Positions 27,605 to 41,598 of a stretch of DNA of 64,000 nt are shown here, piece by piece. How positions within the stretch are numbered: position 1 is the stretch's first letter; each line of letters starts with the position of its first letter. The stretch is taken from positions 310,001-374,000 of the forward strand of contig NC_018581.1 in assembly GCF_000143885.2 (NCBI RefSeq), written 5' to 3'. The notes beneath the pieces are model-generated. The model did not search any database. It was given only the letters and a program-made list of their open reading frames with translations, and was not told the origin of the DNA. A program made the position numbers and the translations under genes. This DNA comes from Gordonia sp. KTR9 (GTDB lineage: Bacteria > Actinomycetota > Actinomycetes > Mycobacteriales > Mycobacteriaceae).

Positions 27605-28702
27605 TCAGAGCCAATCGCGCCGGCGGAACGAAACATACAGTCCCACAACCAGGATGAGGATCAGGGTGACGCTGGTGATGAAGCCGGCCGCCTTCTCGAA
27701 ACCGGGGAACGGCACGTTCTGTCCGTAGAAGCCGGTGATGGCGGTCGGCACGGCGATGATCGCCGCCCACGCGGTCAGCTTCTTCATGACCGTGTTCAAC
27801 CGGGCGTCGGCGAGGGTCAGGTTGGTCTCGAAGACGGTGGTGATCATGTCCCGCAACGACTCCGTCCACTCCGACGCACGCAGTGCGTGGTCGTAGAGAT
27901 CGGAGAAATGCGGGTCGAGCTCGGGTGGCGCCTGGTTGTCGAACCGCCGTCGCTGGATACCGGCGATCACCTCACGCATCGGCAGGACGACCCGTCGTAG
28001 GACGACGAGGTCCTTGCGCAGGTCGTAGGTTCGGCGCTGCAATTCGCGACCGGGGATCCGCTCGTCGAACAGCAGGGCCTCGAGACCCTCGATCTCGTCG
28101 TCCAGGCGCTGCACGGCGTCGAAATGCCCGTCGACGACGACGTCGAGCAAGCCGTGTACGAGCGCGCCGATCCCGTACTGCATGGCCCCGCTGTCCGACC
28201 ATCTGCGAACGACCTCGTCGATGTCGAGTGCCGGGGTCGGTCGCACGGTGATGAGCGCGTTGTGTTTGACGAAAACCGAGATGCGGTGCAGGTCGAACAT
28301 CCGCGCCCGACCGTTCGCGGACGAGCGGAACTCGGTCGCCGTGGAACCGCGGTCCTGGTCGTCCTGGTCGTCCTGGTCGTCGGACGGTGTGTCGCCGTCG
28401 TGCAGTGAGACCGCGTAGACCATCACGAAGGTGTGCCCGGTGTAGGTGACGGTCTTCACGCGTTCGGCCGCCGCGACGGTGTCCTCGATCGCGAACGGAT
28501 CGAGATCGAGTTCGGCGGCGAGCCGGGACAGCGTCTCGTGCGTCGGACATTCGATATCCGCCCAGATCAGCTTGTCCGAATCCTCGAGACAGGTGGATAT
28601 CTCCCCGAGGTCGAAGCCGTCCACCGGCTCCCCGTTCCGCCAGATCTGACCGCGGATGCGTTCGACGCCGCGAGGTTCCGACACGTCAGAGGGCACAGTC
28701 AT
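27605..28702 (-). CDS. corA: CorA-family magnesium/divalent cation transporter
   Basis: A 365-residue CorA-type channel: long cytoplasmic funnel domain, long stalk helix and two C-terminal membrane helices. The signature after TM1 reads YGQN (TGFYGQNVPFPG), in place of the classical YGMN; this Gln variant occurs in CorA-like proteins of actinobacteria, so selectivity for Mg is not certain. A low-complexity acidic stretch (DDQDDQDDQD, about 110-119) is coded by nine-base repeats at 28362-28384. The ATG at 28702 is preferred to an in-frame codon at 28795. Confidence 0.85.
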   Translation of the reverse strand: MTVPSDVSEPRGVERIRGQIWRNGEPVDGFDLGEISTCLEDSDKLIWADIECPTHETLSRLAAELDLDPFAIEDTVAAAERVKTVTYTGHTFVMVYAVSLHDGDTPSDDQDDQDDQDRGSTATEFRSSANGRARMFDLHRISVFVKHNALITVRPTPALDIDEVVRRWSDSGAMQYGIGALVHGLLDVVVDGHFDAVQRLDDEIEGLEALLFDERIPGRELQRRTYDLRKDLVVLRRVVLPMREVIAGIQRRRFDNQAPPELDPHFSDLYDHALRASEWTESLRDMITTVFETNLTLADARLNTVMKKLTAWAAIIAVPTAITGFYGQNVPFPGFEKAAGFITSVTLILILVVGLYVSFRRRDWL

Positions 28703-28854
28703 GTGGCCATCGTGACACCGCCGGACGTGTTCCGGCGGTGCGACAGGCAGTCGCGATGTCGGCCACACCGGATGGTCGTCGTCCGCGGGTAGCATCGAGA
28801 TCGGTGTCTGTGGACGGGCGCGGGCACCGATTCTCCAGGTAAGGCGGCGACGAC

Positions 28855-30102
28855 ATGGTCGACAGCAATCCCCGCGGACATCGGTTGATGCCCGCGCGCA
28901 CGAGCGAACAGATCCGCGAGTGGTGCGATCGTTCGGCGGTGCCGGGTGAACGTCGTGAGCTGTCGGACACCGCAGCGCTGCTCATCGCGTCCGGATATCT
29001 CACCCCGGGTGGTCGGGCGATCGTGGTGCGCCGGATCTCCACCGGCCGGCCGATGCCGTCGATGTCCGCGGGTTTCGGCGACCTCCGCCGCCTGCAGCGC
29101 GCGATCGTCCAGATCGAACACCAGCTGTCGAGTCCGGTCGTGCCCGGCGTGGTCGGCGCCGTGATGCGCAACCGGCTCAACGGCCTGCAGCGGCGCCGCG
29201 AGGACGCCCGGAAACAGATCGTCGCCGCCAAGGGCGTGTTCGCCTCCGGAACCAGGGCGATCCGGCGCGAGCGTCGGGAGAACGTCTATCTCGAGATCGA
29301 GGAACGAGACCGCCTGTTCGCCGGTCTGCTGTGCACCCCGACCCCCAACGTCAACACGTCGAGCTACGTCCGACGCGCCGGAACCGCCGCCTTCGACCGG
29401 ATCGCCGGTGTGGTCGGCCAGGTGGCCGCGAAGTCGGGCAACTCACAGGCGGGGCAGTGGGCTGACCAGTTCCTGTCCGGCGTGCGCGAGGCGCCGGGCG
29501 GTCCATCCCCGGCCGGAGCGCCGCGCGCCGCGGCCTTCGTCGACGGCTACGAGACGCTGTTGTTCATCACCGGTCATTACTACGACCGCATCCTCGGCAA
29601 CCCCGCGTGGCGCTCCGACCACTTCGAGGTCCAGCGCACCCAGGTGAACCTGCACGCCGAGGTCGCCGAGATCGCCGCCGACGTCATCGCGCTGCGAGCC
29701 GTGCGCATCGATCTCGACCGGGCCAAGCGAAACGGCGGCTTCGACCGCACCTTCGCCGCGCAGATCGATCAGCGGGAGACGACGCTGCGGCCGGTGTGGA
29801 CCGAGCTCATCGACCGCGTCCAGGCGCTCGGGGAGGTGGCGCACGTCGTCGAGTCCGCGGCCGTCGAACTCCAGGTTCTCGCCGAGTACAACAAGGCGGC
29901 CACCCTGGACGATCGCATCGACGCGCTGATCGCGAGGTCGGGAGACCGGGAGATCTCCGTCGACAACGCCAAACGTCTCACCGAGCAGGTCCGCAGCGGC
30001 GAGGAGCAGTTGCGGATCTATCGAGATGTGTTGCAGGGCAACATCGCCCGAATCTCGCCGGCGGTGCCGCGAGAGCTACCCGCCCGCTACGAGCCGTCGT
30101 GA
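28855..30102 (+). CDS. Conserved hypothetical, helical protein
   Basis: A 415-residue soluble protein not recognised. No signal peptide or membrane helix is seen. It is Arg-rich and mostly helical, with coiled-coil-prone parts near 75-130 (RRLQRAIVQIEHQL, RLNGLQRRREDARKQI) and 235-330. A ribosome-binding site-like AAGG precedes the ATG. The stop overlaps the tail of the convergent thioesterase gene by 27 bases, so the two 3' ends are mutually antisense. No motif allows a function to be given. Confidence 0.7.
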   Translation: MVDSNPRGHRLMPARTSEQIREWCDRSAVPGERRELSDTAALLIASGYLTPGGRAIVVRRISTGRPMPSMSAGFGDLRRLQRAIVQIEHQLSSPVVPGVVGAVMRNRLNGLQRRREDARKQIVAAKGVFASGTRAIRRERRENVYLEIEERDRLFAGLLCTPTPNVNTSSYVRRAGTAAFDRIAGVVGQVAAKSGNSQAGQWADQFLSGVREAPGGPSPAGAPRAAAFVDGYETLLFITGHYYDRILGNPAWRSDHFEVQRTQVNLHAEVAEIAADVIALRAVRIDLDRAKRNGGFDRTFAAQIDQRETTLRPVWTELIDRVQALGEVAHVVESAAVELQVLAEYNKAATLDDRIDALIARSGDREISVDNAKRLTEQVRSGEEQLRIYRDVLQGNIARISPAVPRELPARYEPS

Positions 30103-30585
30103 GGCGGCGCTGAGGTAACTCTTCTCGGAGGGTGTCAGCCGCCGCAGGGTGTGCTTCTCGATGTCGACGACGGCCATCTGGGTGCTCGCCACGCACGCCG
30201 GCCGGCCGGCGGGTTCGGCTCCGGCGCCGCGGATCTCGTATCCGATGGTGAAGTCCACGGAACGAAAACCTTTGATCCACATCCCGATTCGCAACGGCGA
30301 ATCGTCGTGGCGCAGCTGGGCCTGATACCGGATGTCGACGTGCACGATCATCGCGCTCGTGATCAGGGGGGCGTAGTCCTCGCCGGCGCTCAACAGCCAC
30401 GCGATGCGCGCCTCTTCCATCAGCGTGACCATCCGTGCGTGGTTGATGTGGCCGAAGGCGTCCATGTCCGACCACCGCACCCCGACTTCGGCGACGAAGG
30501 CGAAGTCCTTCGGGCCGAGTCCCTCGGCCGGCGCTGTCTCGTCCGGTCCGGGGAGTTGATGGTGAACAGAACGTGAACTGGGCAT
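30076..30585 (-). CDS. Acyl-CoA thioesterase, 4-hydroxybenzoyl-CoA thioesterase-like hot-dog fold
   Basis: A 169-residue single hot-dog protein with the 4HBT signature VRWSDMDAFGHINHARMVTLMEEAR (about 36-60), in which the Asp of the DxDxxGHxN motif is catalytic. It would cleave a short or medium acyl-CoA in the cytoplasm. GAGGAAAG lies seven bases before the ATG at 30585. Convergent and overlapping with the preceding hypothetical gene; divergent from the mycolyltransferase-like gene. Confidence 0.88.
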   Translation of the reverse strand: MPSSRSVHHQLPGPDETAPAEGLGPKDFAFVAEVGVRWSDMDAFGHINHARMVTLMEEARIAWLLSAGEDYAPLITSAMIVHVDIRYQAQLRHDDSPLRIGMWIKGFRSVDFTIGYEIRGAGAEPAGRPACVASTQMAVVDIEKHTLRRLTPSEKSYLSAASRRLVAGG

Positions 30586-30775
30586 CGTCGACTTTCCTCG
30601 GCGGTCCCGGTGTCCGTGAGATGCCGTGGTCACGACCTTCCACTCCGCTGTACGCCGGGTAGTCTGTGAGTCTAGATGTCCGCGCCGCTCGGATTCCGAC
30701 CGGCGCGGACGCGCACGTGGTGACACGACGGGTCCGGGTGCGCTCGGGGGGACTGTCGGCGAGGGAGTTGGCGAG

Positions 30776-31753
30776 ATGTCGAGGCGGTTGATCGCGGGCC
30801 TGGTGTGCCTGATGGTGGGGATTCTGTCGACCCCGGCCATCGCCGACGCTGCTCCCAGACAGGTGGCGCGGATCGCCAAGTCCGAGAAGCTGAGTGCACT
30901 GCGTACCGACATCTGGGTGTTCTCGCCGGCGATGAACGAGCGGATCAAGCTGTCGGTGCTCACCCCGGTCGGCGGCTCGACGCCGCGCTCGACGGTCTAC
31001 ATGCTCGACGGCGCGGGTGCCGAGGGCGAGGTCAGCGACTGGATCACCAAGGGCCGGGCCGGTCGCTTCTTCGCCGACAAGAACGTCAACGTCGTGCTCC
31101 CCACCGGCGGCAAGGGCACGTTCTACACCGACTGGCAGAAGAAAGACGCGGCACTCGGCAAGCCGATGTGGGAGACCTTCCTCACCAAAGAGCTGCCCCC
31201 GCTGATCGACGACAGATTCGACGGCAACGGACGCAATGCGGTCATCGGCTTGTCGATGGGCGGGCAGGCCGCCTTCTCACTGGCCATCCGCCATCCCGAG
31301 ATGTACACCGGGGTCGCCTCGCTCAGCGGCTGCCCGCCGGTGTCCGGACCGGTCAATGAGGCGTATGTCCGGACCACCGTCGGCCGCGACGGCGGTGACG
31401 CGACCAACATGTGGGGCCCGTTCGGTTCCGCGGGCTGGCGCGCGCACGATCCGAGCCTCCATCTGGACCGGCTGCGGGGCAAGAACATCTTCATCTCGGC
31501 CGGGTCGGGTGCCATCGGACCTCTCGACCTGCAGCGGCAGATCGACCCGGACGAAGGTCCGCGCGAGGTCGTGACCGCGTCGTCGTCGGCGCTCGAACTG
31601 GGCGCCTACCGGTGCTCGCTCGAGTTCGCCATCACGCTGCGCGCCGCGGGGGTGCCCTACACCGACGGATTCCGCCTCATCGGAACCCACACCTGGGCGT
31701 ACTGGGAGCGCGACCTCGCGGTCCTCTGGCCGACCATCGGTCGCGGGCTCTAG
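30776..31753 (+). CDS. Secreted Ag85-like esterase / mycolyltransferase
   Basis: A 325-residue exported alpha/beta hydrolase: signal peptide 1-26 (LIAGLVCLMVGILSTPAIADA, cut after an Ala-x-Ala). The esterase-D/antigen 85 fold shows VVLPTGGKGTFYTDWQ, the nucleophile GLSMGGQ (Ser160) and a C-terminal catalytic His in GTHTWAYW. Antigen 85 proteins transfer mycolate to trehalose and arabinogalactan outside the membrane; this fits a mycolic-acid bacterium. The first-substrate fibronectin-binding loop cannot be judged. The gene stands alone. Confidence 0.87.
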   Translation: MSRRLIAGLVCLMVGILSTPAIADAAPRQVARIAKSEKLSALRTDIWVFSPAMNERIKLSVLTPVGGSTPRSTVYMLDGAGAEGEVSDWITKGRAGRFFADKNVNVVLPTGGKGTFYTDWQKKDAALGKPMWETFLTKELPPLIDDRFDGNGRNAVIGLSMGGQAAFSLAIRHPEMYTGVASLSGCPPVSGPVNEAYVRTTVGRDGGDATNMWGPFGSAGWRAHDPSLHLDRLRGKNIFISAGSGAIGPLDLQRQIDPDEGPREVVTASSSALELGAYRCSLEFAITLRAAGVPYTDGFRLIGTHTWAYWERDLAVLWPTIGRGL

Positions 31754-31784
31754 TCCGGCCGCGCCCGCGGGCCGACCCCGAGGG

Positions 31785-32852
31785 TCAGCTCCGGGGCCCG
31801 TCCCAGCTCTCGGCGAACCGCAGGAACACATCGACCTCGTCGGTGTTCGTGACGGTCACCCGCACGCCGTCACCGGCGAAGGGGCGGACCACCACCCCGG
31901 CGTCGACGCAGGCGCGTGCGAACTCCGACGACGCCGCGCCCAGGTCGAGCCACACGAAGTTGGCCTGCGAGTCGGGCACCCGGTATCCGGCCTCGCGCAG
32001 TCGGGTGGTGACGCGGGCGCGTTCGGCGACGACCGCGTCCGTGCGGACCAGTAGCTGGTCGCCGGCATCGAGGCTGGCCAGCGCCGCGGCCTGCGCGACG
32101 CTGCTGACCGAGAACGGGACGTGGACCTTTCCCAGAGCCGTGATGACCTCCGGGTCGGCGATCGCATAGCCCACGCGCAGGCCGGCCAGTCCGTACGCCT
32201 TGGAGAAGGTGCGCAGCACCACCAGGTTGGGGAACTCGCGCCGGAGTTCGAGCGCGTCGTACGCCTGGTTCGACGGCAGGCGCAGGTACTCGAAGTACGC
32301 CTCGTCGAGTGCGACGACGACATCCGACGGCACGCGCTGCAGGAAGTCACGGAGGTCGGCCGCCTCGACCACGGTCCCGGTCGGGTTGTTCGGGTTGCAC
32401 ACGAAGATCAGCCGCGTGCGGTCGGTGACCGCCTCGGCCATCGCGCGCAGATCGTAGGTCAGGTCGCCGGTGAGCGGGACCTGCACCGGTGTCGCGCCCG
32501 CGACGCGGGTCGCGAGGGGGTAGGTCTCGAAGGACCGCCACCCGAAGACCACCTCGTCGCCCGGTCCGCTGGTGACGAGGATGAGGTTCTGGCAGAGGAT
32601 GACCGACCCGCACCCGACCTGGATCTCGTCTTCGGTGACGCCGAGGCTCTTGGCCAGCGCCGCGGTCAGCTCGACCATCCCGTTGTCGGGGTAGCGGTTC
32701 ACGGCTGCAGCGGCGGCGGCGATGGCGTCGATGACGCTCGGCAGCGGACCCTCGGTGACCTCGTTGCTCGCGAGCTTCACCGCTCCCGGAAACGTCTTGC
32801 CCGGCACGTACACGGGAAGGTCGTCCAGATCGGGGCGGATTCGCAGGCTCAC
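31785..32852 (-). CDS. pat: Aromatic amino acid / histidinol-phosphate aminotransferase (HisC2/Pat-like)
   Basis: A 355-residue fold-type I PLP enzyme: KLASNEVTEGPLPSV at the N-terminus, the substrate/cofactor motif FVCNPNNPTGT, Asp in ALDEAYFEY, and the PLP lysine in RTFSKAYGLAGLRVGY, followed by the phosphate-binding Arg region. Length and GTG start (32852) match the second HisC copy of mycobacteria (Rv3772), which acts mainly on phenylalanine and tyrosine precursors. It is near tyrA in this window, in line with an aromatic amino acid role. hisC itself is the alternative label. Confidence 0.87.
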   Translation of the reverse strand: MSLRIRPDLDDLPVYVPGKTFPGAVKLASNEVTEGPLPSVIDAIAAAAAAVNRYPDNGMVELTAALAKSLGVTEDEIQVGCGSVILCQNLILVTSGPGDEVVFGWRSFETYPLATRVAGATPVQVPLTGDLTYDLRAMAEAVTDRTRLIFVCNPNNPTGTVVEAADLRDFLQRVPSDVVVALDEAYFEYLRLPSNQAYDALELRREFPNLVVLRTFSKAYGLAGLRVGYAIADPEVITALGKVHVPFSVSSVAQAAALASLDAGDQLLVRTDAVVAERARVTTRLREAGYRVPDSQANFVWLDLGAASSEFARACVDAGVVVRPFAGDGVRVTVTNTDEVDVFLRFAESWDGPRS

Positions 32853-32970
32853 CCGACCAATGTAGGCCGCGGTCGCGTAGGGGCGGAAACCGGCTCTGAC
32901 CAACCGGTTTGCTTGTGGCCGCGAAGGGTGTGTAACCTTTCGACTCGGCAGTTCGAAAGGACTCCGCCGA

Positions 32971-33062
32971 GGAGGCGTGCCAGAGCGGCCGAATGGGACT
33001 CACTGCTAATGAGTTGTCTCGCTAAAACGGGACCGGAGGTTCAAATCCTCTCGCCTCCGCCA
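32971..33062 (+). tRNA. tRNA-Ser (anticodon GCT)
   Basis: Acceptor GGAGGCG/CGCCTCC, D-arm CAGAGCGGCCGAATGG, anticodon stem-loop ACTCACTGCTAATGAGT with GCT, a long variable arm typical of serine tRNAs and a GGTTCAAATCC T-arm. CCA is encoded at 33060-33062. It decodes AGC/AGU. Confidence 0.97.
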
Positions 33063-33115
33063 ACCGCAGTCGGCCGACCGCGGTACAACTGAAGAGCACG
33101 ACAACTGAATATCAC

Positions 33116-33191
33116 GCGCCCGTAGCTCAACGGATAGAGCATCTGACTACGGATCAGAAGGTTTGGGGTTCGAATCCCTACGGGCGCACCA
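33116..33191 (+). tRNA. tRNA-Arg (anticodon ACG)
   Basis: A 76-base class I cloverleaf: acceptor GCGCCCG/CGGGCGC, D-arm TAGCTCAACGGATAGAGC, anticodon loop CTACGGA with ACG (A34 is later deaminated to inosine by TadA, which is also coded in this window), T-arm GGTTCGAATCC and an encoded CCA. Confidence 0.97.
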
Positions 33192-33192
33192 C

Positions 33193-33226
33193 AGAGGCCC
33201 GTCACCGATCCCGGTGGCGGGCCTCT
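33193..33226. terminator. Hairpin terminator after tRNA-Arg
   Basis: AGAGGCCCG-T-CACC pairs with GGTG-G-CGGGCCTCT across a short loop; the stem is almost perfect and is followed by TCTTCTG-type pyrimidines. It could work on both strands. The following stretch to 33413 (about 190 bases) shows no gene. Confidence 0.75.
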
Positions 33227-33413
33227 TCTGTGCACGCCGGAACCCTGGGTGGGTGGACGAGGTGCCGGTGCACACGTTCTGGGTCACGGCGAACATCGGC
33301 CGGCGATCGGAGTGGCCCGTCGGTTCCGATGATCTGCCGTGATGCCATCCATCCTCGCCGGTGTCCGTGGCGTCGACACGAGTACGGCACTACCCCAATC
33401 GGTGCGGGGGCGA

Positions 33414-35561
33414 CTACGCGCGGAGGATCACCAGCTGCTGTGTCGCCCGTGTCATCGACACGTAGCGGTCGACGGCACCCTCGGTCCCGGGGCCGAACGA
33501 GTCCGGATCGACGAGCACCACGAGATCGAATTCGAGTCCCTTGGCGAGCGTGGGGGTCAGCGACCGCACGCGCTCGGTCCCCGCGAAGTCCGGTTCGCCG
33601 ATCACGCATGCGATCCCGTCTCGATGTGCCGACGTCCAGTCGGCGATCACCGTGTCGAGGTCGGCGCGAACGCCGAATGTCACCGGAATGCCCGACCGCC
33701 GAACCGAAGTCGGGACATTCGCATCGGGAAGCGCCGCGCGGATGACGGGTGCGGCCGCATCCATGATCTCCTCCGGGGTCCGGTAGTTGATCGTGAGTCC
33801 CGCCTCGGTGACGTCACCCAACCCGACGCGACGAAGTCGCTCTTCCCACGATTCGGTGAACCCGCGCCGGGCCTGCGCGCGGTCTCCGACGACGGTGAAA
33901 CTCTTCGACGGACAGCGATCGATCAGCATCTGCCACTGGGCGTCGGTCAGTTCCTGGGCCTCGTCGACGACGATGTGCGCGAACGGCCCGGCCAGCGGCC
34001 CGGCGGTCTCACCGACGATCTCGTCCCCGAGGTTGTCGCGCAGGTTCTCGTGCCGCAGCATCGCCATCAGTCCCTCGCCGTCGTCGTGGACCTCCGCGGC
34101 GATCAGGTCGTCGACCACGCGGTCGATCTTCTCGCGCTCGGCCGTCATGGCCGTGCGCTGCCTGCGACGTCGGGCCGGCGCCGCCGGATCCCCGATTCGC
34201 CGATGTGCGCGGTCGAGGACCGGCAGGTCTGCATCGGTCCAGGCGTGCGGGGTGGCGCGCTGGAGCACGCGTACCTCGGCGGGGGACAGCCACGGCGCGC
34301 ACATGCGGAGGAATGCCGGCACCGACCACAGGTCACCGACGATCTCGGCGGCGTCGAGCACCGGCCACGCGCGCGAGAATGCCGTCACGAGTTCGTCGTT
34401 CGCCGCCAACGCACGACGCAGCGCGTGGTGGGGCACGTCGTCGTCGTGTCGCGAGGCGATGATGGACACCAGTTCCTCCCACACCTCGTCGCGGGCATCG
34501 TTGTGCGCTGTACCGTGTTCCGGCACGTCGAAGGCGTCCGCCCAATCGGTCGGTGTCAGAGTCGTCTCCGCCCACGGAGTCTCGACCACCAAGGGCGTCG
34601 TGGGCGGTTGTTCGTAGAATCTCACCGCCGGTTCGACCGCCTCAACCATCCGAACCGATGACTTCAATCGCGCCACGTCGACGTCGGTTTCGGTTGTCGC
34701 CGAACCACCTTCGACGACGAAATCGGTGAGAGTGCATGTCTGGACGCTCTCCTCGCCGAGACTCGGCAGCACATCGGCGACATAGGAGAGGTAGGGCCGG
34801 TGGGGTCCGACGACGAGCAGCCCGCCGCGATTGCCCGCAAGGCGCGGATCGGCGTAGACGAGGTAGGCGGCACGATGCAGCGCGACGACGGTCTTGCCGG
34901 TCCCGGGACCACCGTCGACGACGAGGGCGCCGTGCGAGCCGGCTCGGATGATCGCGTCCTGATCGGTGGCGATGGTGCCGAGGACATCTCGCATCCGCGG
35001 GGAACGACTGGCGCCGAGGTCGGCGAGGAAGGCCGACTGCTCGTCGAGCGCGGCGTGCGAGGCGAGCACCGCGGGGTCGTCGACGAAGACCTCGTCCCAG
35101 TAGTCGGTGATCCGGCCGTGCGTCCAGCGGTAGCGGCGTCGGCTCACCAGTCCCATCGGGTCTCGACGGGTGGCGGCGAAGAACGGCGCGGCCAGCGGGG
35201 TGCGCCAGTCGACGAGCAGGGTCTCGCCGGCAGAGTCCGTCAGTCCGAGCCGCCCGACGTACAGGATGTCCCCGTCGTCGCGGACCAGCCGGCCCAGGCA
35301 CAGGTCGAGGCCGAAGCGCCGTAGGGATCGTATTCGAGAGCCGAGCTGATGGATCTCCATGTCGCGGTCGACGGCCCGCCGCCCCTTGCCGCCGGCTTCG
35401 CGCAGCAGTCCTTGCAGGCGTTCCTCGGCGTCCGTCAGAGTGCGCCGCAGACTCGTGGTGATCGAGGTGAAATGTCGGGTGTCGTCGGCGATGAGGACGG
35501 GATCGTTCTTCGGGGACAGTTGGTCGGGGAGGGCGAACACAACGGTGGTCGTCGGACTCAC
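33414..35561 (-). CDS. helR: HelR-type RNA polymerase-recycling ATPase (UvrD-like superfamily 1 motor)
   Basis: About 715 residues. Superfamily 1A motor core: Walker A GGPGTGKT (about 217-224), Walker B HIVVDEAQELTDAQW, motif III VGDRAQARRGF, motif IV-VI region TINYRTPEEIMDA and YVSMTRATQQLVIL. An N-terminal helical segment (about 25-75) before the SLRRFGLDLCLGRL and DWRTPLAAPFF blocks matches HelD/HelR proteins, which enter the RNA polymerase channels and eject stalled enzyme or rifamycin. The GTG at 35561 is preferred because VSPTTTVVFALPDQL looks like the family N-terminus and because the putative promoter makes an upstream GTG (35654) unlikely. A RAE-like site lies upstream. Confidence 0.87.
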   Translation of the reverse strand: MSPTTTVVFALPDQLSPKNDPVLIADDTRHFTSITTSLRRTLTDAEERLQGLLREAGGKGRRAVDRDMEIHQLGSRIRSLRRFGLDLCLGRLVRDDGDILYVGRLGLTDSAGETLLVDWRTPLAAPFFAATRRDPMGLVSRRRYRWTHGRITDYWDEVFVDDPAVLASHAALDEQSAFLADLGASRSPRMRDVLGTIATDQDAIIRAGSHGALVVDGGPGTGKTVVALHRAAYLVYADPRLAGNRGGLLVVGPHRPYLSYVADVLPSLGEESVQTCTLTDFVVEGGSATTETDVDVARLKSSVRMVEAVEPAVRFYEQPPTTPLVVETPWAETTLTPTDWADAFDVPEHGTAHNDARDEVWEELVSIIASRHDDDVPHHALRRALAANDELVTAFSRAWPVLDAAEIVGDLWSVPAFLRMCAPWLSPAEVRVLQRATPHAWTDADLPVLDRAHRRIGDPAAPARRRRQRTAMTAEREKIDRVVDDLIAAEVHDDGEGLMAMLRHENLRDNLGDEIVGETAGPLAGPFAHIVVDEAQELTDAQWQMLIDRCPSKSFTVVGDRAQARRGFTESWEERLRRVGLGDVTEAGLTINYRTPEEIMDAAAPVIRAALPDANVPTSVRRSGIPVTFGVRADLDTVIADWTSAHRDGIACVIGEPDFAGTERVRSLTPTLAKGLEFDLVVLVDPDSFGPGTEGAVDRYVSMTRATQQLVILRA

Positions 35562-35639
35562 GTCGGCAGGGGCTTCGGGGACTGAGGGCACAGATGGGGC
35601 TCCGAATCGGCAGGCGGCGGGGTTGTCTCGGCAGGTGAG

Positions 35640-35681
35640 AGAGCGATTCTGCACCGCGAGGGGGGCCTTGCGGCAAGCCCC
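35640..35681 (-). promoter_or_regulatory. Rifamycin-associated element (RAE)-like palindrome and promoter of helR
   Basis: On the minus strand GGGGCTTGCCGCAAGGCCC (35681-35663) differs from the RAE consensus as recalled (GGGGCTTGCGGCAAGGCCC) only at the central base. The RAE is known from promoters of rifamycin-responsive genes in actinomycetes. A -35-like TTGCCG lies inside the palindrome and a -10-like CAGAAT (35653-35648, preceded by TG) follows at about 19 bases; a start site near 35640 is inferred. Confidence 0.8.
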
Positions 35682-36132
35682 TGTCCAGGGCTTATGGTGA
35701 AAGGGGAAAAGAGATCGCCGCCCGCGCGGGTGAAGCGGACTCCAGTCCCACTTGACCCGATCAGCCCATCACCTGTTGCAGCCTGGTGTGCTGTATGTGA
35801 AAGTACTGTCAGTTCACTACGGTGAACTCCTATCGGTGGGGCCTGTCAGGGGGCTGCCGCCCCCGAAGATCTGGGGGTGGGGCGGCAGCGCGGCCACGGT
35901 TCTCCATTCCCGGTCATCTCTCCCGTTCCGGGACTCATTCGACCAACTGGTCCTTTGTCACCGTGGCGTCGTCGTGGCCTGCGGCTTTCCGATCGCCGAG
36001 ATGAGCATCCGAACTCGCGTCGTAAGGTCGGAGATGGAATGACACGCGGCGTCGCGCCGGTCCGCCCGGTTGCAGCCGGTGCCTCGACGCGTCGTCGACG
36101 ACGACGCTCACGATCTCGACCGGAGGCCGACG
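35682..36132. other. Long intergenic region with a palindrome and a GC-rich hairpin
   Basis: About 450 bases without a convincing gene. It holds a perfect 18-base palindrome AGTTCACTACGGTGAACT (35811-35828, arms of seven) and a stem-loop CTGCCGCCCC/GGGGCGGCAG (35854-35863 and 35879-35888) that also contains an alternative CCCCC/GGGGG pairing. The palindrome has the look of a TetR-type operator, but no such regulator is adjacent. A 96-codon frame at 35752-36042 has no family-like features. Confidence 0.5.
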
Positions 36133-36915
36133 ATGGGACAGCCGTACGGGGGCCGTGACCCCGGCGCCCGCGATCCGCGGCACCGCGACGATGCCGGCGG
36201 TCAGACCGGCGGGTCCCCGCGTGATCTGTACGGACAGCCCGTCGCACCGCAGCTCTATCCGCCGCTCGGGTACGCCTCCGACGGCACCCCGCTGTTCCGT
36301 CCCGGCCAGCCGACGAACACCGAGCTGACCATGGCCGAGCGCGCCGAGCGTGCCGAGGGCGAGCGGATTGCGACCGCCGAGCGGGAGGCCGACGACGCGG
36401 ACGGCCGGGCGGGTTCCCGCGTTCTCGGAGTACCCACCGCGACCCTGGTCCTGACCTCGGGGATGGTGGTGCTGCTCGTGGTGGCCTTCGTCGGATTCCT
36501 CGGACTCCGTCAGGGGGCCGAAGAACCCCTCGCGGATTCGCCGCTCACCACCGACACGATGCCGATCCCTCGTACCTTCGAACCGCCCAGCCTCACCCCG
36601 CCCGAGCCGGGACAACAGCTCCCGGGGCAACCCGGTGAGCGGATCGACCCGCAGAACAAACCGGTGACCTACGAGGCGACCATCGACGGGCAGGCCACCA
36701 TCCTGTACGTCGACGATGCCGGGTTGCGCTCCGAGTTCGCCCCGACGAATCCGTGGACCGTCCAGTTCACCGGCGGGATCAATCCGCTGCGTCTGCTGGT
36801 GATCGCGGGGACGGGTAGTGCGGTGACCTGCTCGATCACCGTCGACGGCGAGGTGGTGGTGGAGGACACGGTGACGCCGTCGTCCACCCGTCGCACCGCG
36901 TCCTGCATCGCCTGA
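36133..36915 (+). CDS. Membrane-anchored protein with MmpS-like C-terminal domain
   Basis: A 260-residue protein: Gly/Pro/Arg-rich cytoplasmic N-terminus with a charged helix (AERAERAEGERIATAEREADD, about 68-90), one membrane helix (about 102-125), a Pro-rich linker (about 145-170) and an exported C-terminal domain (KPVTYEATIDGQATILYVDDAG, then CSITVDGEVVVED and a terminal SCIA). The last part resembles the beta-sandwich of MmpS proteins, with two Cys spaced as in that family. MmpS proteins assist MmpL lipid exporters, but no mmpL is adjacent. GGAGG precedes the ATG at 36133. Confidence 0.72.
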   Translation: MGQPYGGRDPGARDPRHRDDAGGQTGGSPRDLYGQPVAPQLYPPLGYASDGTPLFRPGQPTNTELTMAERAERAEGERIATAEREADDADGRAGSRVLGVPTATLVLTSGMVVLLVVAFVGFLGLRQGAEEPLADSPLTTDTMPIPRTFEPPSLTPPEPGQQLPGQPGERIDPQNKPVTYEATIDGQATILYVDDAGLRSEFAPTNPWTVQFTGGINPLRLLVIAGTGSAVTCSITVDGEVVVEDTVTPSSTRRTASCIA

Positions 36916-37010
36916 GCCGTCACGTTCCCGTCACCGCGAATCCCGCGTGTCGGTGGGGTGACCTGCTCGTCCGATGTGTGATCGGGGCCGTGGCTCGCTA
37001 CCTTGGTCAC

Positions 37011-37631
37011 GTGAGTTCCCCGCAGACAGCCCCAGACAGTGGTCAGTCTTCCGCCCCCAACGACGAGTTCAAGACGATGCTCACGTGGCGGGGCGAAGAC
37101 ACCGATCGACTCGAACAGGTCCGCCTGGTCGTGTCCGGCGCGCGCCTCAAGGCATACGGACGGATCATCGCCGCGGCGACCGCCGACCACGAGGCGTTCT
37201 CCGCGTCCTATGAGCTGCAGACCACCGACGCCGGTGTGGTCAAGCGGCTGACCGTGCACCTGGTGCGCGCGGACGGGGAGACGCAGTTCGGCATCACCCG
37301 CGACGACGAGGGCACGTGGCTGATCCGACGCCCCGACGGCGAGACCACCCGCTCTGATTTCGACGGCGCCGAAGACGTGGACCTCGCGCTGTCGCCCATG
37401 TTCAACTCTCTGCCGATCCGACGCCGCGGCCTGTCGGCGTCGACGCCCACAACGGTCGAGGTCCCGGTCGCCTACATGTATCTGCCCAGCGGCGACGTGA
37501 AGCCGGCGACAATGTCGTACACCCCGGGCAAAGACGGATTCCGCGTGGTGTCGCCGCTCGCGACGACGACGATCACGGTCGACGAGAACAACTTCGTCGT
37601 CGACTATCCGGGTCTCGCGCGGCGCGTCTGA
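37011..37631 (+). CDS. Putative glycolipid-binding-like protein
   Basis: About 206 residues, no signal peptide. FKTMLTWRGEDTDRLEQVRLVVSGARLKAYGRII opens a beta-rich fold; the core is YELQTTDAGVVKRLTVHLVRADGETQFGITRDDEGTWLIRRPDG, and the later part PVAYMYLPSGDVKPATMSYTPGKDGFRVVSP. This is the pattern of the putative glycolipid-binding (YkkA/DUF1089-like) proteins. Role is unknown. The GTG at 37011 has a TACCTT -10-like box close upstream and may be leaderless; a GTG at 36978 is also in frame. Convergent with tyrA. Confidence 0.7.
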   Translation: MSSPQTAPDSGQSSAPNDEFKTMLTWRGEDTDRLEQVRLVVSGARLKAYGRIIAAATADHEAFSASYELQTTDAGVVKRLTVHLVRADGETQFGITRDDEGTWLIRRPDGETTRSDFDGAEDVDLALSPMFNSLPIRRRGLSASTPTTVEVPVAYMYLPSGDVKPATMSYTPGKDGFRVVSPLATTTITVDENNFVVDYPGLARRV

Positions 37632-37644
37632 GCCCTGCCCGGGT

Positions 37645-38619
37645 TCAGCCCACCCACACCCGGCCCTGGTGGGCCTGACGGCGGAGTTCCTGCTGCCAGC
37701 CGTCGTCGCCGACGGTCACCCCGGAGATGACCTCCGCGGTCCCGGAGTGCAGCTGCTCGTACGCAGCCCGGGCGCGGTGTCCGTCGTCGACGAGCACTTC
37801 GACGGTTCCGTGGTCGCGCAGTTCGTCGCGCACGGCGATGAGGCGGTCGATGGTCTCGCTGAGGACGTTGAGCACGGCGATGCCGTTGGCCTCGATCATC
37901 GCCCGCTGCAGGGCGGGTGCCGTGCCGGCGACCCGGGTGCCGTCGCGGAAGCTACCGGCCGCCAGGCGCAGCGCGAGGTCGCTCTCACCGGCCCCGACGG
38001 CGGCCGTTGCCGCGGCGGTCAGGTGCGGTAGATGGGAGATCGCCGCGACCGCCCGATCATGCGCATCGGGGGCGACCGGCACCACCCGTGAGCCGACGGC
38101 CACGGCGAGCGCGGCCACCGTGAGCCAGTCGTCGGACGGGGTGTCGTCTGTTGTGGTGACGGCCCACATGGCTCCGTCGAAGAGGGTCGCGTCGGTTGCT
38201 GCCCAGCCCGACGAGCTGGTCCCCGCCATCGGATGACCGCCCACATACCGCCCACCGGGATGCAGGTGGGCGAGGACGCGCGCGACTTCCTGCTTGACGC
38301 TGATGACGTCGGTGACAAGGACCTCGGGGGCGTGCTCGGCGATGGCGGTCACCAGCGGCTCGATCGTCGTCACGGGTGTCGCCAGCACGACCAGTGCGTC
38401 CGACGACGCCGCGCGGCCAAGTGTCGCAACGAGATCCGAGGACGCGTCGTATCCGTCGCGCGTGGCGGCATCGACGGTCGCCGTCGACCGGTTGTAGCCG
38501 AACGCCTCGTGTCCGGCGTCGTGCAGGGCCCGCACGAGCGAGCCGCCGATCAGGCCCAGGCCCAGCACGCATACCGGTCGGGGGAGGGTGAGAGCGGGGG
38601 ACGACGGCGCGGCAGTCAC
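37645..38619 (-). CDS. tyrA: Prephenate dehydrogenase
   Basis: A 324-residue enzyme of tyrosine synthesis, which oxidatively decarboxylates prephenate with NAD. Rossmann motif VCVLGLGLIGGSLVRALHDAGHEAFGYNRS (about 16-45), then TDVISVKQEV, the catalytic-site GGHPMAGTSSSGW (His binds prephenate) and AISHLPHLTAAA. It lacks a fused ACT domain. The start is a GTG at 38619. In mycobacteria tyrA also adjoins the tadA pair, with which it is divergent here. Confidence 0.92.
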   Translation of the reverse strand: MTAAPSSPALTLPRPVCVLGLGLIGGSLVRALHDAGHEAFGYNRSTATVDAATRDGYDASSDLVATLGRAASSDALVVLATPVTTIEPLVTAIAEHAPEVLVTDVISVKQEVARVLAHLHPGGRYVGGHPMAGTSSSGWAATDATLFDGAMWAVTTTDDTPSDDWLTVAALAVAVGSRVVPVAPDAHDRAVAAISHLPHLTAAATAAVGAGESDLALRLAAGSFRDGTRVAGTAPALQRAMIEANGIAVLNVLSETIDRLIAVRDELRDHGTVEVLVDDGHRARAAYEQLHSGTAEVISGVTVGDDGWQQELRRQAHQGRVWVG

Positions 38620-38697
38620 CCTGACACGTTCCCATACCGGTCACGCACGGTGAACCGGGACTTGGGAGTACCGGTGATAGGGGCTACGGTTTCCTGC

Positions 38698-39240
38698 ATG
38701 GCCGGTGCCGGATTTGGGAAGTCGGGGTCGAACGCGCAGGACGTGGACGACGACATCGACGGTTTTGCCGTGGCGGTCGTACGCGACGAGAGTGGCTGGA
38801 AGGTCACCGCGATGAAGCCGTCTGCGCTCTCCGACCTCGAGGACGCCGAAACCCAATTGCGTGAGCTGCGTTCCGCGGGCGCGGTGTTCGGGCTCCTCGA
38901 TGTCGACGACGAGTTCTTCATCATCGTGCGGCCGTCCCCGACGGGAGCGCGTCTCCTGATCTCCGACGCGACCGCCTCCGTCGACTACGACATCGCGGTC
39001 GACGCGCTGGACGCCCTGAACGTCGAGGTGCCCGACATCGATCCGGACGAACTCGACCAGATCGATCCGTGGGAAGAAGGGGATCTCGGGTTGCTCGCCG
39101 ACCTGGGACTGCCCGACGCGGTCATGAGCGTCATCGTCGGCGACACCGATCTCTACGCCGACGAGCAACTCGGCATGATCGCCGCACGGCTCGGCTTCGC
39201 CGACGAGCTGGGCAAGGTCCTCGATTCGCTCGGCCACTGA
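38698..39240 (+). CDS. tRNA adenosine deaminase-associated protein
   Basis: A 180-residue acidic protein (DVDDDIDGFAVAVVRDESGWKVT, then LRELRSAGAVFGLLDVDDEFFIIVRP and the acidic DIDPDELDQIDPWEEGDLGLLADLGLP). It matches the small protein always found before tadA in mycobacteria and relatives (Rv3753c). The biochemical role is unknown; the fixed pairing suggests help to TadA. Two genes, about 20 bases apart, form an operon. The ATG at 38698 gives the usual length. Confidence 0.85.
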   Translation: MAGAGFGKSGSNAQDVDDDIDGFAVAVVRDESGWKVTAMKPSALSDLEDAETQLRELRSAGAVFGLLDVDDEFFIIVRPSPTGARLLISDATASVDYDIAVDALDALNVEVPDIDPDELDQIDPWEEGDLGLLADLGLPDAVMSVIVGDTDLYADEQLGMIAARLGFADELGKVLDSLGH

Positions 39241-39259
39241 GCCTGTCGGCATCCGCGCG

Positions 39260-39724
39260 ATGAGTGCGCCCCCCTGGGAATCCATGGTCCGTGCCGCACT
39301 CGATGCGGCGACGCTGTCGGGGACCGACGACGTACCCATCGGTGCGGTCGTCTTCGACCCGGAGGGCATCGAATTGGCCCGCGCGGCGAACCGCCGGGAG
39401 GCCGATGGCGATCCGACGGCACACGCCGAGGTCCTCGCGCTGCGTGCGGCGGCGCGGGCGTTCGGTGACGGCTGGCGGCTCCCGGGGTGCACGATCGCGG
39501 TGACCGTCGAACCCTGCACCATGTGTGCGGGCGCGATCACGCTGTCCCGGGTCGACGCCGTCGTGTTCGGAGCGTGGGAGCCCAAGACGGGTGCGGTCGG
39601 CTCATTGTGGGACGTCGTGCGCGATCCACGGCTGTCGCATCGCCCCCAGGTGAAGGGCGGCGTCCTCGAAGACGAGTGCCGCGCGCTCATGGTCGACTTC
39701 TTCGCCACCCGCCGACACCCGTGA
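39260..39724 (+). CDS. tadA: tRNA(adenine34) deaminase TadA
   Basis: A 154-residue cytidine-deaminase-fold enzyme that converts A34 to inosine in tRNA-Arg(ACG), which is itself encoded at 33116. The zinc site is complete: HAEVLALRAAARAFGD (His and catalytic Glu, about 54-56) and VTVEPCTMCAGAITLSRV (two Cys). PIGAVVFD and the C-terminal region GVLEDECRALMVDFFATRR are as expected. Normal length; nothing unusual. Confidence 0.93.
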   Translation: MSAPPWESMVRAALDAATLSGTDDVPIGAVVFDPEGIELARAANRREADGDPTAHAEVLALRAAARAFGDGWRLPGCTIAVTVEPCTMCAGAITLSRVDAVVFGAWEPKTGAVGSLWDVVRDPRLSHRPQVKGGVLEDECRALMVDFFATRRHP

Positions 39725-39847
39725 TCGCGCGCGGTCTCGGGGTCGCGCAAGGACAAGATCGGTGAGATCTCAGGGTGCGGACCGGTGGTCGTCGCTGCGC
39801 GGTCCTGGCAGATTGGAATGCAGCACCCCGACCCGCGAGGAGTAGTC

Positions 39848-40117
39848 ATGACCGATCCGTCCGACAAGGTGACCGCGGCCTTCGACACCGCCAAGGCCAA
39901 GATCAACGAGTTCGCCGAGAGCGGCAAGGTGCAGGAGGCGCTGGGAACCGCCCGCGACAAGATCGACGAGCTCGTCGAGAGCAAGCAGGTCCAGGACGCC
40001 CTGGCCACCGCGAAGGACAAGCTCAACGACCTCGCGGAGAACGAGAAGGTCCAGGAGGCGTTCAGCACCGCCAAGGACAAGCTCAACGAGGTGTCGGAGA
40101 AGTTCACCAGCCGCTGA
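39848..40117 (+). CDS. Small four-repeat helical protein (20-residue repeats)
   Basis: An 89-residue protein built almost wholly from four tandem 20-residue repeats with the pattern V-Q-E-A-L-x-T-A-K-D-K-L-N-E-L-x-E-x-x-K (repeats at about 8-27, 28-47, 48-67 and 68-86). It is charged, Cys-free and amphipathic, like LEA or apolipophorin-type proteins. AGGAG lies six bases before the ATG. It sits next to a CsbD-type stress protein, so a stress or desiccation role is plausible but inferred. Not recognised as a named family. Confidence 0.8.
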   Translation: MTDPSDKVTAAFDTAKAKINEFAESGKVQEALGTARDKIDELVESKQVQDALATAKDKLNDLAENEKVQEAFSTAKDKLNEVSEKFTSR

Positions 40118-40288
40118 CAGGCCGCTGACCTGCGTTCCTGCAGCTCAGTGTGCACCTGTGGCACGGTGGGAGGCAGGAGTCCGCTCCTCAGGCGGCGCCA
40201 GTGTCGAGCAGCCGGCGCGTCGGTCGTCGCCGAGTTCTTCCACATCGGACGGCACCCGGCCGCGCCGAACCTCAACCCAGGAGGCTTC

Positions 40289-40498
40289 ATGGGAACCACG
40301 GACGACGCCAAGAACAAGGCCGAAGAGCTCAAGGGTCGCGGCAAGGAAGCCGCGGGCAGCCTCACCGACGATCAGGACCTCAAGAACGAGGGCAAGGGCG
40401 ACCAGGCGCAGGCCCAGGGCAAGCAGAAGGTCACCGAGGCCGCCGATGCCGTCAAGGGCAAGATCGACGACGTCAAGAACAAGCTGACCGGCCACTAG
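40289..40498 (+). CDS. CsbD-family stress protein
   Basis: A 69-residue hydrophilic protein with the CsbD pattern (DDAKNKAEELKGRGKEAAGSLTDDQDLKNEGKGDQAQAQGK, then a Lys-rich helix ending VKNKLTGH). CsbD proteins are general-stress-induced and intrinsically flexible; their role is not known. AGGAGG lies directly upstream of the ATG. Same direction as the four-repeat protein, 171 bases away. Tandem 31-base repeats follow shortly after the stop. Confidence 0.9.
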   Translation: MGTTDDAKNKAEELKGRGKEAAGSLTDDQDLKNEGKGDQAQAQGKQKVTEAADAVKGKIDDVKNKLTGH

Positions 40499-40522
40499 TA
40501 CACCCGCCGCTCGGCGGTGCCC

Positions 40523-40650
40523 CCTGCTCTGAGGGTAAGGCGATGTCTCTTGCCCTGCTCTGAGGGTAAGGCGATGTCTCTTGCCCTGCTCTGAGGGTAA
40601 GGCGATGTCCCCTGCCCTGCTCTGAGGGTAAGGCGATGCCCCCCTGCTCC
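40523..40650 (+). repeat. 31-base tandem repeat after csbD, four units plus a partial one
   Basis: Units begin at 40523, 40554, 40585 and 40616 with CCTGCTCTGAGGGTAAGGCG followed by ATG and a pyrimidine tail; the period is exactly 31. The partial fifth unit at 40643 runs into the CTGAGGTGCGAGGAGCG element. The units are adjacent without spacers. Each carries a TGA, so at a 31-base period the TGA shifts reading frame each time. Confidence 0.85.
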
Positions 40651-40686
40651 CTGAGGTGCGAGGAGCGTAAGCGACGAGCCTCGAAG
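40651..40686 (+). repeat. Uninterrupted copy of the 36-base interspersed element
   Basis: CTGAGGTGCGAGGAGCG, TAAGCGACGAGCC and TCGAAG are contiguous here. This intact copy serves as the reference for the copy cut by the IS110 element (55284-55303 joined to 56811) and the copy at the right edge of the IS1380 element (14320-14355). Confidence 0.75.
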
Positions 40687-40764
40687 CGCAGGCGACCTGC
40701 GTTGTCACACCCGCCTGAGCAGCTGATTTAAGTCTGACCGCAGGTCTGCGGTACAGTCTTCGGC

Positions 40765-40852
40765 GGTGGCGTGTCCGAGCGGCCGAAGGTGCAGCACTCG
40801 AAATGCTGTGTGCGGTAACCCCGTACCGAGGGTTCAAATCCCTCCGCCACCG
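40765..40852 (+). tRNA. tRNA-Ser (anticodon CGA)
   Basis: Acceptor GGTGGCG/CGCCACC, D-arm TCCGAGCGGCCGAAGGT, anticodon loop CTCGAAA with CGA, long variable arm and GGTTCAAATCC T-arm. The discriminator G is followed by CCG, so CCA is not encoded, unlike the other three tRNAs in the window. Confidence 0.97.
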
Positions 40853-40855
40853 CCG

Positions 40856-40893
40856 GAAATGGCCCCCCATCCTCACGGGTGGGGGGCCATTTC
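40856..40893. terminator. Strong hairpin terminator after tRNA-Ser
   Basis: GAAATGGCCCCCCA pairs perfectly with TGGGGGGCCATTTC (14 base pairs) around a ten-base loop. It lies between the tRNA and the convergent mspA-like gene and can serve both strands. Confidence 0.8.
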
Positions 40894-40917
40894 GCTGTCC
40901 GGGTCTGCGCCGTCGAA

Positions 40918-41598
40918 TCAGCCCAGGCTGAACGGTTTCCCGTACACGGCGATCGACTGCGACACGTTGTCGGTCGTGACGCTCACCTTGGCGTACGACC
41001 GGGCCTGTGCGTAGCCGGCGCAGCCGTTCACCATCATGGTCTCGTTGGTGTAGGCGAGAGTTCCCTTGCCGCCGGCGAAGCTGATCGACGACGAGTGGCC
41101 GGCCGCGCCGAACGCGTCCTTGTACTCGCGGTCGTTGATCACGTAGTTGACGGCCTGGCCGGGGCCGATGGTCACGCCGGCGCCGGTCTCGGCAGTCGCG
41201 GTCGCGCTCTGGAGGTCGTAGTTGGGCGCGGAAGCGCCGGCCCGGCTGTTCGAGTTACCGCCGAGCGTGAGCTGGCAGCCGACGATGTAGCCCGCCCCGA
41301 CGCCGATCTTCGCCGCCTTGTCGGACGTCGACACCACGTACTTGCCGGACACCCACGCATTGCGGTGCAGGGGCGTGCTGCCCATCGACGGGGTGATCCG
41401 CGCGGATTCGTTGCTGCGCGTGATGGTCACTGTCGTACCGTCTTTCAACGTCTTCGTGACGGATTGACCGGGGAGTTCGACGACGGTGTCGGCCTGTGCG
41501 GGTGCCGCGGTCAACGCGGGTACCAGTGCCGCGCAGGCGAGTGCGGTTGTGGCCGCGAGGATACGGGTGCGCGCGGTGTGGCGCTGGGGGGCGGTCAT
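40918..41598 (-). CDS. MspA-family porin
   Basis: A 226-residue exported protein: signal peptide 1-36 (ILAATTALACAALVPALTAAPAQA), then the MspA beta-barrel domain with VTITRSNESARITPSMGSTPLHRNAWVSGKYV, GAGYIVGCQLTLG and the closing ATAETGAGVT, VNGCAGYAQARSYAKVSV. Members form octameric channels in the outer mycomembrane for small hydrophilic solutes. GGAG five bases before the ATG supports 41598. It ends a tandem pair with a second MspA paralogue 47 bases upstream. The two conserved Cys (GYIVGCQ, GCAG) are seen in both. Confidence 0.92.
   Translation of the reverse strand: MTAPQRHTARTRILAATTALACAALVPALTAAPAQADTVVELPGQSVTKTLKDGTTVTITRSNESARITPSMGSTPLHRNAWVSGKYVVSTSDKAAKIGVGAGYIVGCQLTLGGNSNSRAGASAPNYDLQSATATAETGAGVTIGPGQAVNYVINDREYKDAFGAAGHSSSISFAGGKGTLAYTNETMMVNGCAGYAQARSYAKVSVTTDNVSQSIAVYGKPFSLG

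Follow-up and report, generated by a model that had tools for sequence, protein, structure and literature searches.

A rifamycin-associated element ahead of helR in Gordonia sp. KTR9 lies at the centre of a cassette of two divergent promoter-like elements

The rifamycin-associated element (RAE) is described as a 19-bp palindrome that overlaps the -35 region before actinobacterial rifamycin-resistance genes (PMC10719064; PMC12802891, both in excerpt). A 2026 paper, in the part available here, allows that the RAE may be bound by an unknown factor (PMC12802891), and the consulted part of a 2022 review traces the effect of RAE deletion either to an unknown activator or to loss of the promoter 2 -35 (PMC10719064). 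The same part of the review places the -35 of Mycobacterium smegmatis helD promoter 2 within the RAE and describes a further start, some 20 bp ahead of the RAE, as sense-directed. According to an excerpt of PMC8655204, some HelR-group genes have no recognisable RAE. Another described system is helD/pps of Bacillus subtilis, in which rifampicin is sensed by two convergent promoters and the model put forward does without a dedicated factor; the two starts lie 39 bp apart, and moving the promoters closer abolished induction (PMC12802891, in excerpt). The authors of that paper, in the same excerpt, separate the actinobacterial RAE genes from the B. subtilis type. The titles and abstract openings that we searched make no mention of an opposite-strand RAE promoter or of a proteobacterial RAE, and Spanogiannopoulos 2014, Surette 2022 and Hurst-Hess 2022 may mention either.

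We analysed a stretch of 64,000 nucleotides from Gordonia sp. KTR9 (hereafter the window; C2:310001-374000 of the genome) in which helR occupies 33414-35591 on the reverse strand and encodes 725 aa from its preferred start, GTG 35591, with alternatives at 35561 and 35654. A sequence-only reading had assigned the protein to HelR, and the family comparison bears this out: NF041254 (NCBIfam HelR) matches along its whole profile (1-706) with 1171 bits against a cut-off of 750, while the PcrA and DNA helicase II models reach 26 and 23 bits, so that the protein is not a plain UvrD. Among PDB chains, M. smegmatis HelD comes closest (6yxu_H, E 1.6e-95). In an alignment read by eye, the primary-channel-loop region aligns with that of this protein, and a Glu within a DDGE stretch stands opposite its Asp485, the residue that clashes with rifampicin (PMC11464796, in excerpt). 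The window protein is an ordinary member of HelR (class II HelD) with no notable difference, and from its family it would be expected to free rifamycin-stalled RNA polymerase. It is a known sort of rifamycin-protection protein, the RAE is a known regulatory motif, and the pairing of helR with an RAE is likewise a known combination. The genome also contains a second HelD-like frame (C2:3125990-3128269, +; L193), which scores 389 bits to the HelR model, below the cut-off; the genome RAE scan gave no match at that frame.

The near-perfect RAE that had been read ahead of helR is present as the exact 19-mer GGGGCTTGCCGCAAGGCCC at 35663-35681 (-), 71 nt before GTG 35591. When the centre was left free and up to 3 mismatches were accepted, 100 shuffles of the window gave a chance expectation of 0.07, and the two matches returned from the window are one palindrome seen on both strands. 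The centre is a variable position, since G, C and A all occur there (81, 21 and 1 of the 103 sites with a classified downstream gene among the matches listed from the scan described below). The predicted sense promoter also stands as first read: TTGCCG (35671-35676, -) lies inside the palindrome, CAGAAT (35646-35651, -) follows 19 bp further on, and the transcription start predicted from these letters, at about 35639, agrees with the expected position near 35640. The gene thus has the arrangement of an RAE-controlled gene, a 19-bp palindrome upstream that overlaps the -35 of its promoter.

The proposal that translation begins at 35561 is not supported. The long-frame GTG 35654 is disfavoured, as it sits upstream of the predicted transcription start. 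GTG 35591 appears to be a better start than 35561, because a ribosome-binding-like GGAG (35600-35603, -) lies 8 nt before it and because two relatives agree: in L155, another member of the genus, GGAG and GTG are arranged in the same way, and L152 retains GGAG ahead of TTG/GTG and of a VPS peptide like that of the window. In these two relatives 35561 has no counterpart among the start codons, and it is the less likely start.

On the opposite strand, the palindrome contributes to a second promoter-like element. TTGCGG (35668-35673, +) overlaps the sense hexamer by 3 bp, and TATGGT (35693-35698, +) follows in the place of a -10, with a predicted start at about 35705, some 24 nt out from the RAE and directed rightward, away from helR. 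The core TTGCNGCAA thereby contains one -35-like TTGCNG per strand, each 19 bp from its own -10. We found no terminator-like hairpin after the outward promoter of the window (fold z -0.16). The frame at 36070-36915 (+) is a divergent neighbour at which this promoter aims, with no terminator-like hairpin between, and, judging from the sequence, the RAE of Gordonia sp. KTR9 might be where the leader of this frame starts.

To compare this arrangement across genomes, we used a scan of 84,980 genomes with the 19-mer and a free centre, which yielded at least 119 stretches holding at least 120 RAE sites. Of the 120 listed sites, 117 are flanked by 60 nt at either end. In 110 of these an opposite-strand TANNNT begins at a distance of 12 nt from the 19-mer (next best offset, 3), and in 115 a gene-strand NANNNT begins at that distance (next best offset, 30). 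A downstream gene could be classified at 103 of the 120 listed sites: helR 47, rox-like 24, rgt 15, rph 10 and arr 7. Similarity to proteins of this genome gave the helR and arr clusters their names, and 45/47 and 7/7 of their members match; the rph, rgt and rox-like clusters were named from one or two members each. The rph member exceeds its cut-off, the rgt member, truncated at the locus end, stays below its own, and the rox-like members pass the threshold for a related subfamily and miss that for rifampin monooxygenase. Across these five gene classes, the outward TANNNT is present at 101/103 sites (exceptions L078 and L102) and the sense NANNNT at all 103, where it is never TANNNT; its first base is never T and is C in 95. 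Mean matches to TATAAT are 3.38 for the outward and 3.90 for the sense hexamer, so any description of the outward promoter as the stronger would rest on the first base of the hexamer only. The pattern extends beyond Streptomyces, with outward TANNNT at 52/53 and sense NANNNT at 53/53 of the other classified sites (genera assigned from record titles). At the 17 listed sites with no classified gene, which reflect a locus end, a mis-picked frame or chance, the counts are 12 and 15; L085 and L087 resemble sites read in reverse orientation, and L012 and L022, which are not actinobacterial, lack both hexamers.

A set chosen independently of the RAE gives the same picture. From 151 genomes of the window's family, of which 47 hold a HelR match over the cut-off, the 30 best-scoring matches were taken, and TTGCNGCAA lies upstream of helR in 29 of these loci; L158 is without the exact core. 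Twenty-eight loci, mutual relatives, were counted because the core was found within 300 nt (in L134 it lies beyond that limit, and L158 was excluded). In these the core is invariant, the outward TANNNT and the sense NANNNT each occur in 28/28 at the same offsets, and the arms are kept as well (left GGG 28/28, right CCC 27/28); conservation falls near background from about 60 nt upstream. Relatedness inflates all of these site counts, an inflation that the five gene classes and two phyla limit. A cassette-pattern search matched 59/296 genomes, and the reversed control pattern occurred in 5; several of the 59 matches, in AT-rich genomes and without arms, look like chance. Since the cassette search patterns include both -10s, -10 counts from such searches are not independent, while gene partners and hairpins are. 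Two further arrangements were noticed among the listed sites: the Streptomyces sites (L008-L124) have a recurring block of approximately CCTGCGGAAA, resembling the RAE core, which lies some 35-45 nt past the RAE, after the sense -10 and ahead of the start codon, and L122 (Streptoalloteichus tenebrarius) carries two RAE sites on opposite strands of one 8-kb stretch.

Many of the outward promoters run directly into a T-tailed hairpin (43/101 listed sites, versus 2/103 on the sense side), a structure found far upstream at 0/101 and 3/102 sites and in simple shuffles at 0-6. Fold z-scores of actinobacterial sets agree with this, averaging -2.72 outward and +0.47 sense for the combined rgt and rph set; for helR of the window's family they are -0.99 and -0.01, and this family set shows no excess of T-tailed hairpins (3/28, versus 1, 3 and 0 of 28 in controls). 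The arr site of the window's own genome folds (z -2.03) into a stem that few T's follow. The gammaproteobacterial row of fold z-scores (17 sites) was left out because L205 and L209 were wrongly oriented.

One of the listed scan matches belongs to Vulcaniibacterium tengchongense, a gammaproteobacterium (NCBI order Lysobacterales). In a set from that order, the cassette occurs in 45/299 genomes with up to 2 mismatches (reversed control, 0); in a class-level set it occurs in 3/369, all three already within the order set. We examined 38 sites from the 45 genomes (L196-L233), leaving out 7 genomes whose 53-mer is identical or almost identical to that of L229/L233, and all 38 precede arr (29) or rox-like (9) genes. 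These classes were assigned by similarity to references that were themselves taken from the sets compared; a family search places four arr proteins over the NF033144 cut-off. At offset 12, outward NANNNT occurs at 37, outward TANNNT at 31 and sense NANNNT at 32 of the 38 sites, and, as the search pattern held those -10 positions, only the deviations are informative. An outward T-tailed hairpin is present at 26/38 sites, 26/29 before arr and 0/9 before rox-like genes, with 0/38 on the sense side and 1 far upstream. The two halves of the palindrome decay unequally, with 25 mismatches on the right and 6 on the left under equal search selection.

Within the 5.89-Mb genome of Gordonia sp. KTR9, the exact RAE 19-mer occurs at two places, the window site and C2:114555-114573 (-). 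The latter precedes a gene for a 145-aa Arr protein (C2:114070-114507; L005:6071-6508, -; PF12120 153.9 bits; NF033144 168.8 bits against a cut-off of 130), 231 kb from helR. No rph, arr or rox gene was seen among the frames listed for 28000-41000, in agreement with the sequence-only reading. Its suggestion that HelR may be the main inducible rifamycin response is not supported, since arr carries the genome's other exact RAE; for the same reason we rejected HelR as the sole candidate for such a response. The helR and arr promoters share sequence flanking the RAE on both sides, and with zero mismatches the cassette pattern matches these two sites only in the whole genome. A weaker RAE-like match (C2:929726, 2 mismatches) falls inside a reading frame. 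Within the genus, the cassette is found in 50/59 genomes with up to 2 mismatches, with 0 in reversed-pattern controls. A plasmid search with the arr promoter returned 18 Streptomyces records covering at most 26% of the query.

Taken as sequence, the anatomy of the cassette, with its two promoter-like elements, exact symmetry, hairpins, gene partners and range, is well supported, and it suggests that the RAE comprises two divergent, mutually exclusive promoters with overlapping -35s. We consider it highly probable that the outward promoter is real. The switch of helR would then be a cassette of about 100 bp rather than a bare 19-bp operator, and the overlap of the -35s inside the RAE would admit one polymerase at a time to the site. 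The outward promoter, with its TANNNT, would fire away from the gene, in many relatives straight into a terminator-like hairpin, and helR's own promoter would be held back by a detuned -10. In the absence of drug the outward promoter would occupy the shared site and keep helR low; a rifamycin-poisoned polymerase would disturb this occupancy, so that the gene's promoter could be used. We infer that both promoters are active, that the outward one represses the gene and that rifamycin shifts the balance. Rifamycin induction of helR through an outward promoter that holds the shared site is, in our judgement, somewhat favoured.

How the drug might be sensed is a separate matter. In a minimal calculation, mutual exclusion alone gives no induction, and pure promoter exclusion was therefore rejected as the sensing step; a further step is needed. 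When polymerase re-fires locally and the poisoned enzyme leaves after one cycle, the calculated rise is 5.6- and 24-fold at 5% drug-bound polymerase in two settings. If the poisoned enzyme stays for 100 cycles, there is no rise at the first setting and a 4-fold rise at the second. The parameters of this calculation were chosen freely and it speaks to feasibility only: the drug can, in such a model, free the gene promoter if polymerase re-fires locally and the poisoned enzyme leaves fast. A stronger version, in which the RAE is a factor-free rifamycin sensor whose futile promoter-terminator rounds are ended by rifamycin, freeing the gene promoter, strikes us as rather unlikely. Were it true, such a sensor would stand ahead of helR, arr, rox-like, rph and rgt genes and range from Actinomycetota to at least one order of gammaproteobacteria.

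Several observations count against two competing promoters. The conserved GGG/CCC arms exceed the needs of two -35s and would suit a bound dimer, T-tailed hairpins are not in excess at the window or in the family helR set, and some HelR-group genes lack a recognisable RAE, as L158 lacks the exact core. The -35 of M. smegmatis promoter 2 agrees with the predicted sense promoter; the sense-directed start reported upstream of the RAE in that species, as far as the excerpted review describes it, speaks against the reading, and we found no matching conserved feature in the compared sites. The arms are also an argument for a classical operator, in which a rifamycin-responsive protein dimer binds the palindrome and the opposite-strand element has little regulatory weight, and both PMC12802891 and PMC10719064, in the parts consulted, entertain a factor of this kind. 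We regard such an operator as possible, if less than probable. The palindrome centre lies about 33 bp upstream of both predicted starts and a dimer would cover both -35s alike, which makes a gene-selective activator hard to picture, though a repressor of both promoters could act there. An operator also leaves the kept outward -10 and the hairpins unexplained, would require a factor common to actinobacteria and a gammaproteobacterial order, and fits poorly with the unequal decay of the gammaproteobacterial halves, which is unlike a strict homodimer site.

The remaining alternatives concern the outward element itself. The conserved upstream block is AT-rich and is found some 55-60 bp before the predicted sense start, where it might act as an UP-like element or make some other contact for the sense promoter; its spaced TANNNT with freely varying inner bases, an offset equal to that of the sense -10, and terminator-like hairpins in the outward direction only make this explanation very unlikely. 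We give still less credence to an ordinary promoter serving a divergent neighbour gene. The rightward frame in the window, with no terminator-like hairpin found ahead of it, would suit such a role, but the frame upstream of the genome's own arr site runs in the direction of arr (from reading frames only), the hairpins at the listed and gammaproteobacterial sites would cut a neighbour off, and the element recurs ahead of five gene classes. A convergent pair of the B. subtilis type was rejected, as the two elements diverge and fixed conserved columns are absent beyond about 60 bp upstream and 50-60 bp downstream. Two divergent promoters sharing the RAE remain our preferred reading.

As in the described RAE, the helR element of Gordonia sp. 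KTR9 is a 19-bp palindrome over the -35 before a rifamycin-resistance gene; it differs from the descriptions consulted in that it sits in the middle of a symmetric cassette of two predicted promoters, which frequently includes a hairpin and also occurs in a gammaproteobacterial order. The sensing of rifamycins through the RAE is called open in the consulted parts of PMC12802891 and PMC10719064, and a conserved second promoter may offer a concrete, testable alternative. With B. subtilis helD/pps, as excerpted, the cassette would share a weak sense promoter of a resistance gene and an opposing promoter on the second strand; there the promoters converge, whereas those of the RAE cassette diverge and overlap at the -35. 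A two-promoter RAE would link the way in which two phyla sense rifamycins to the logic of paired promoters found in B. subtilis.
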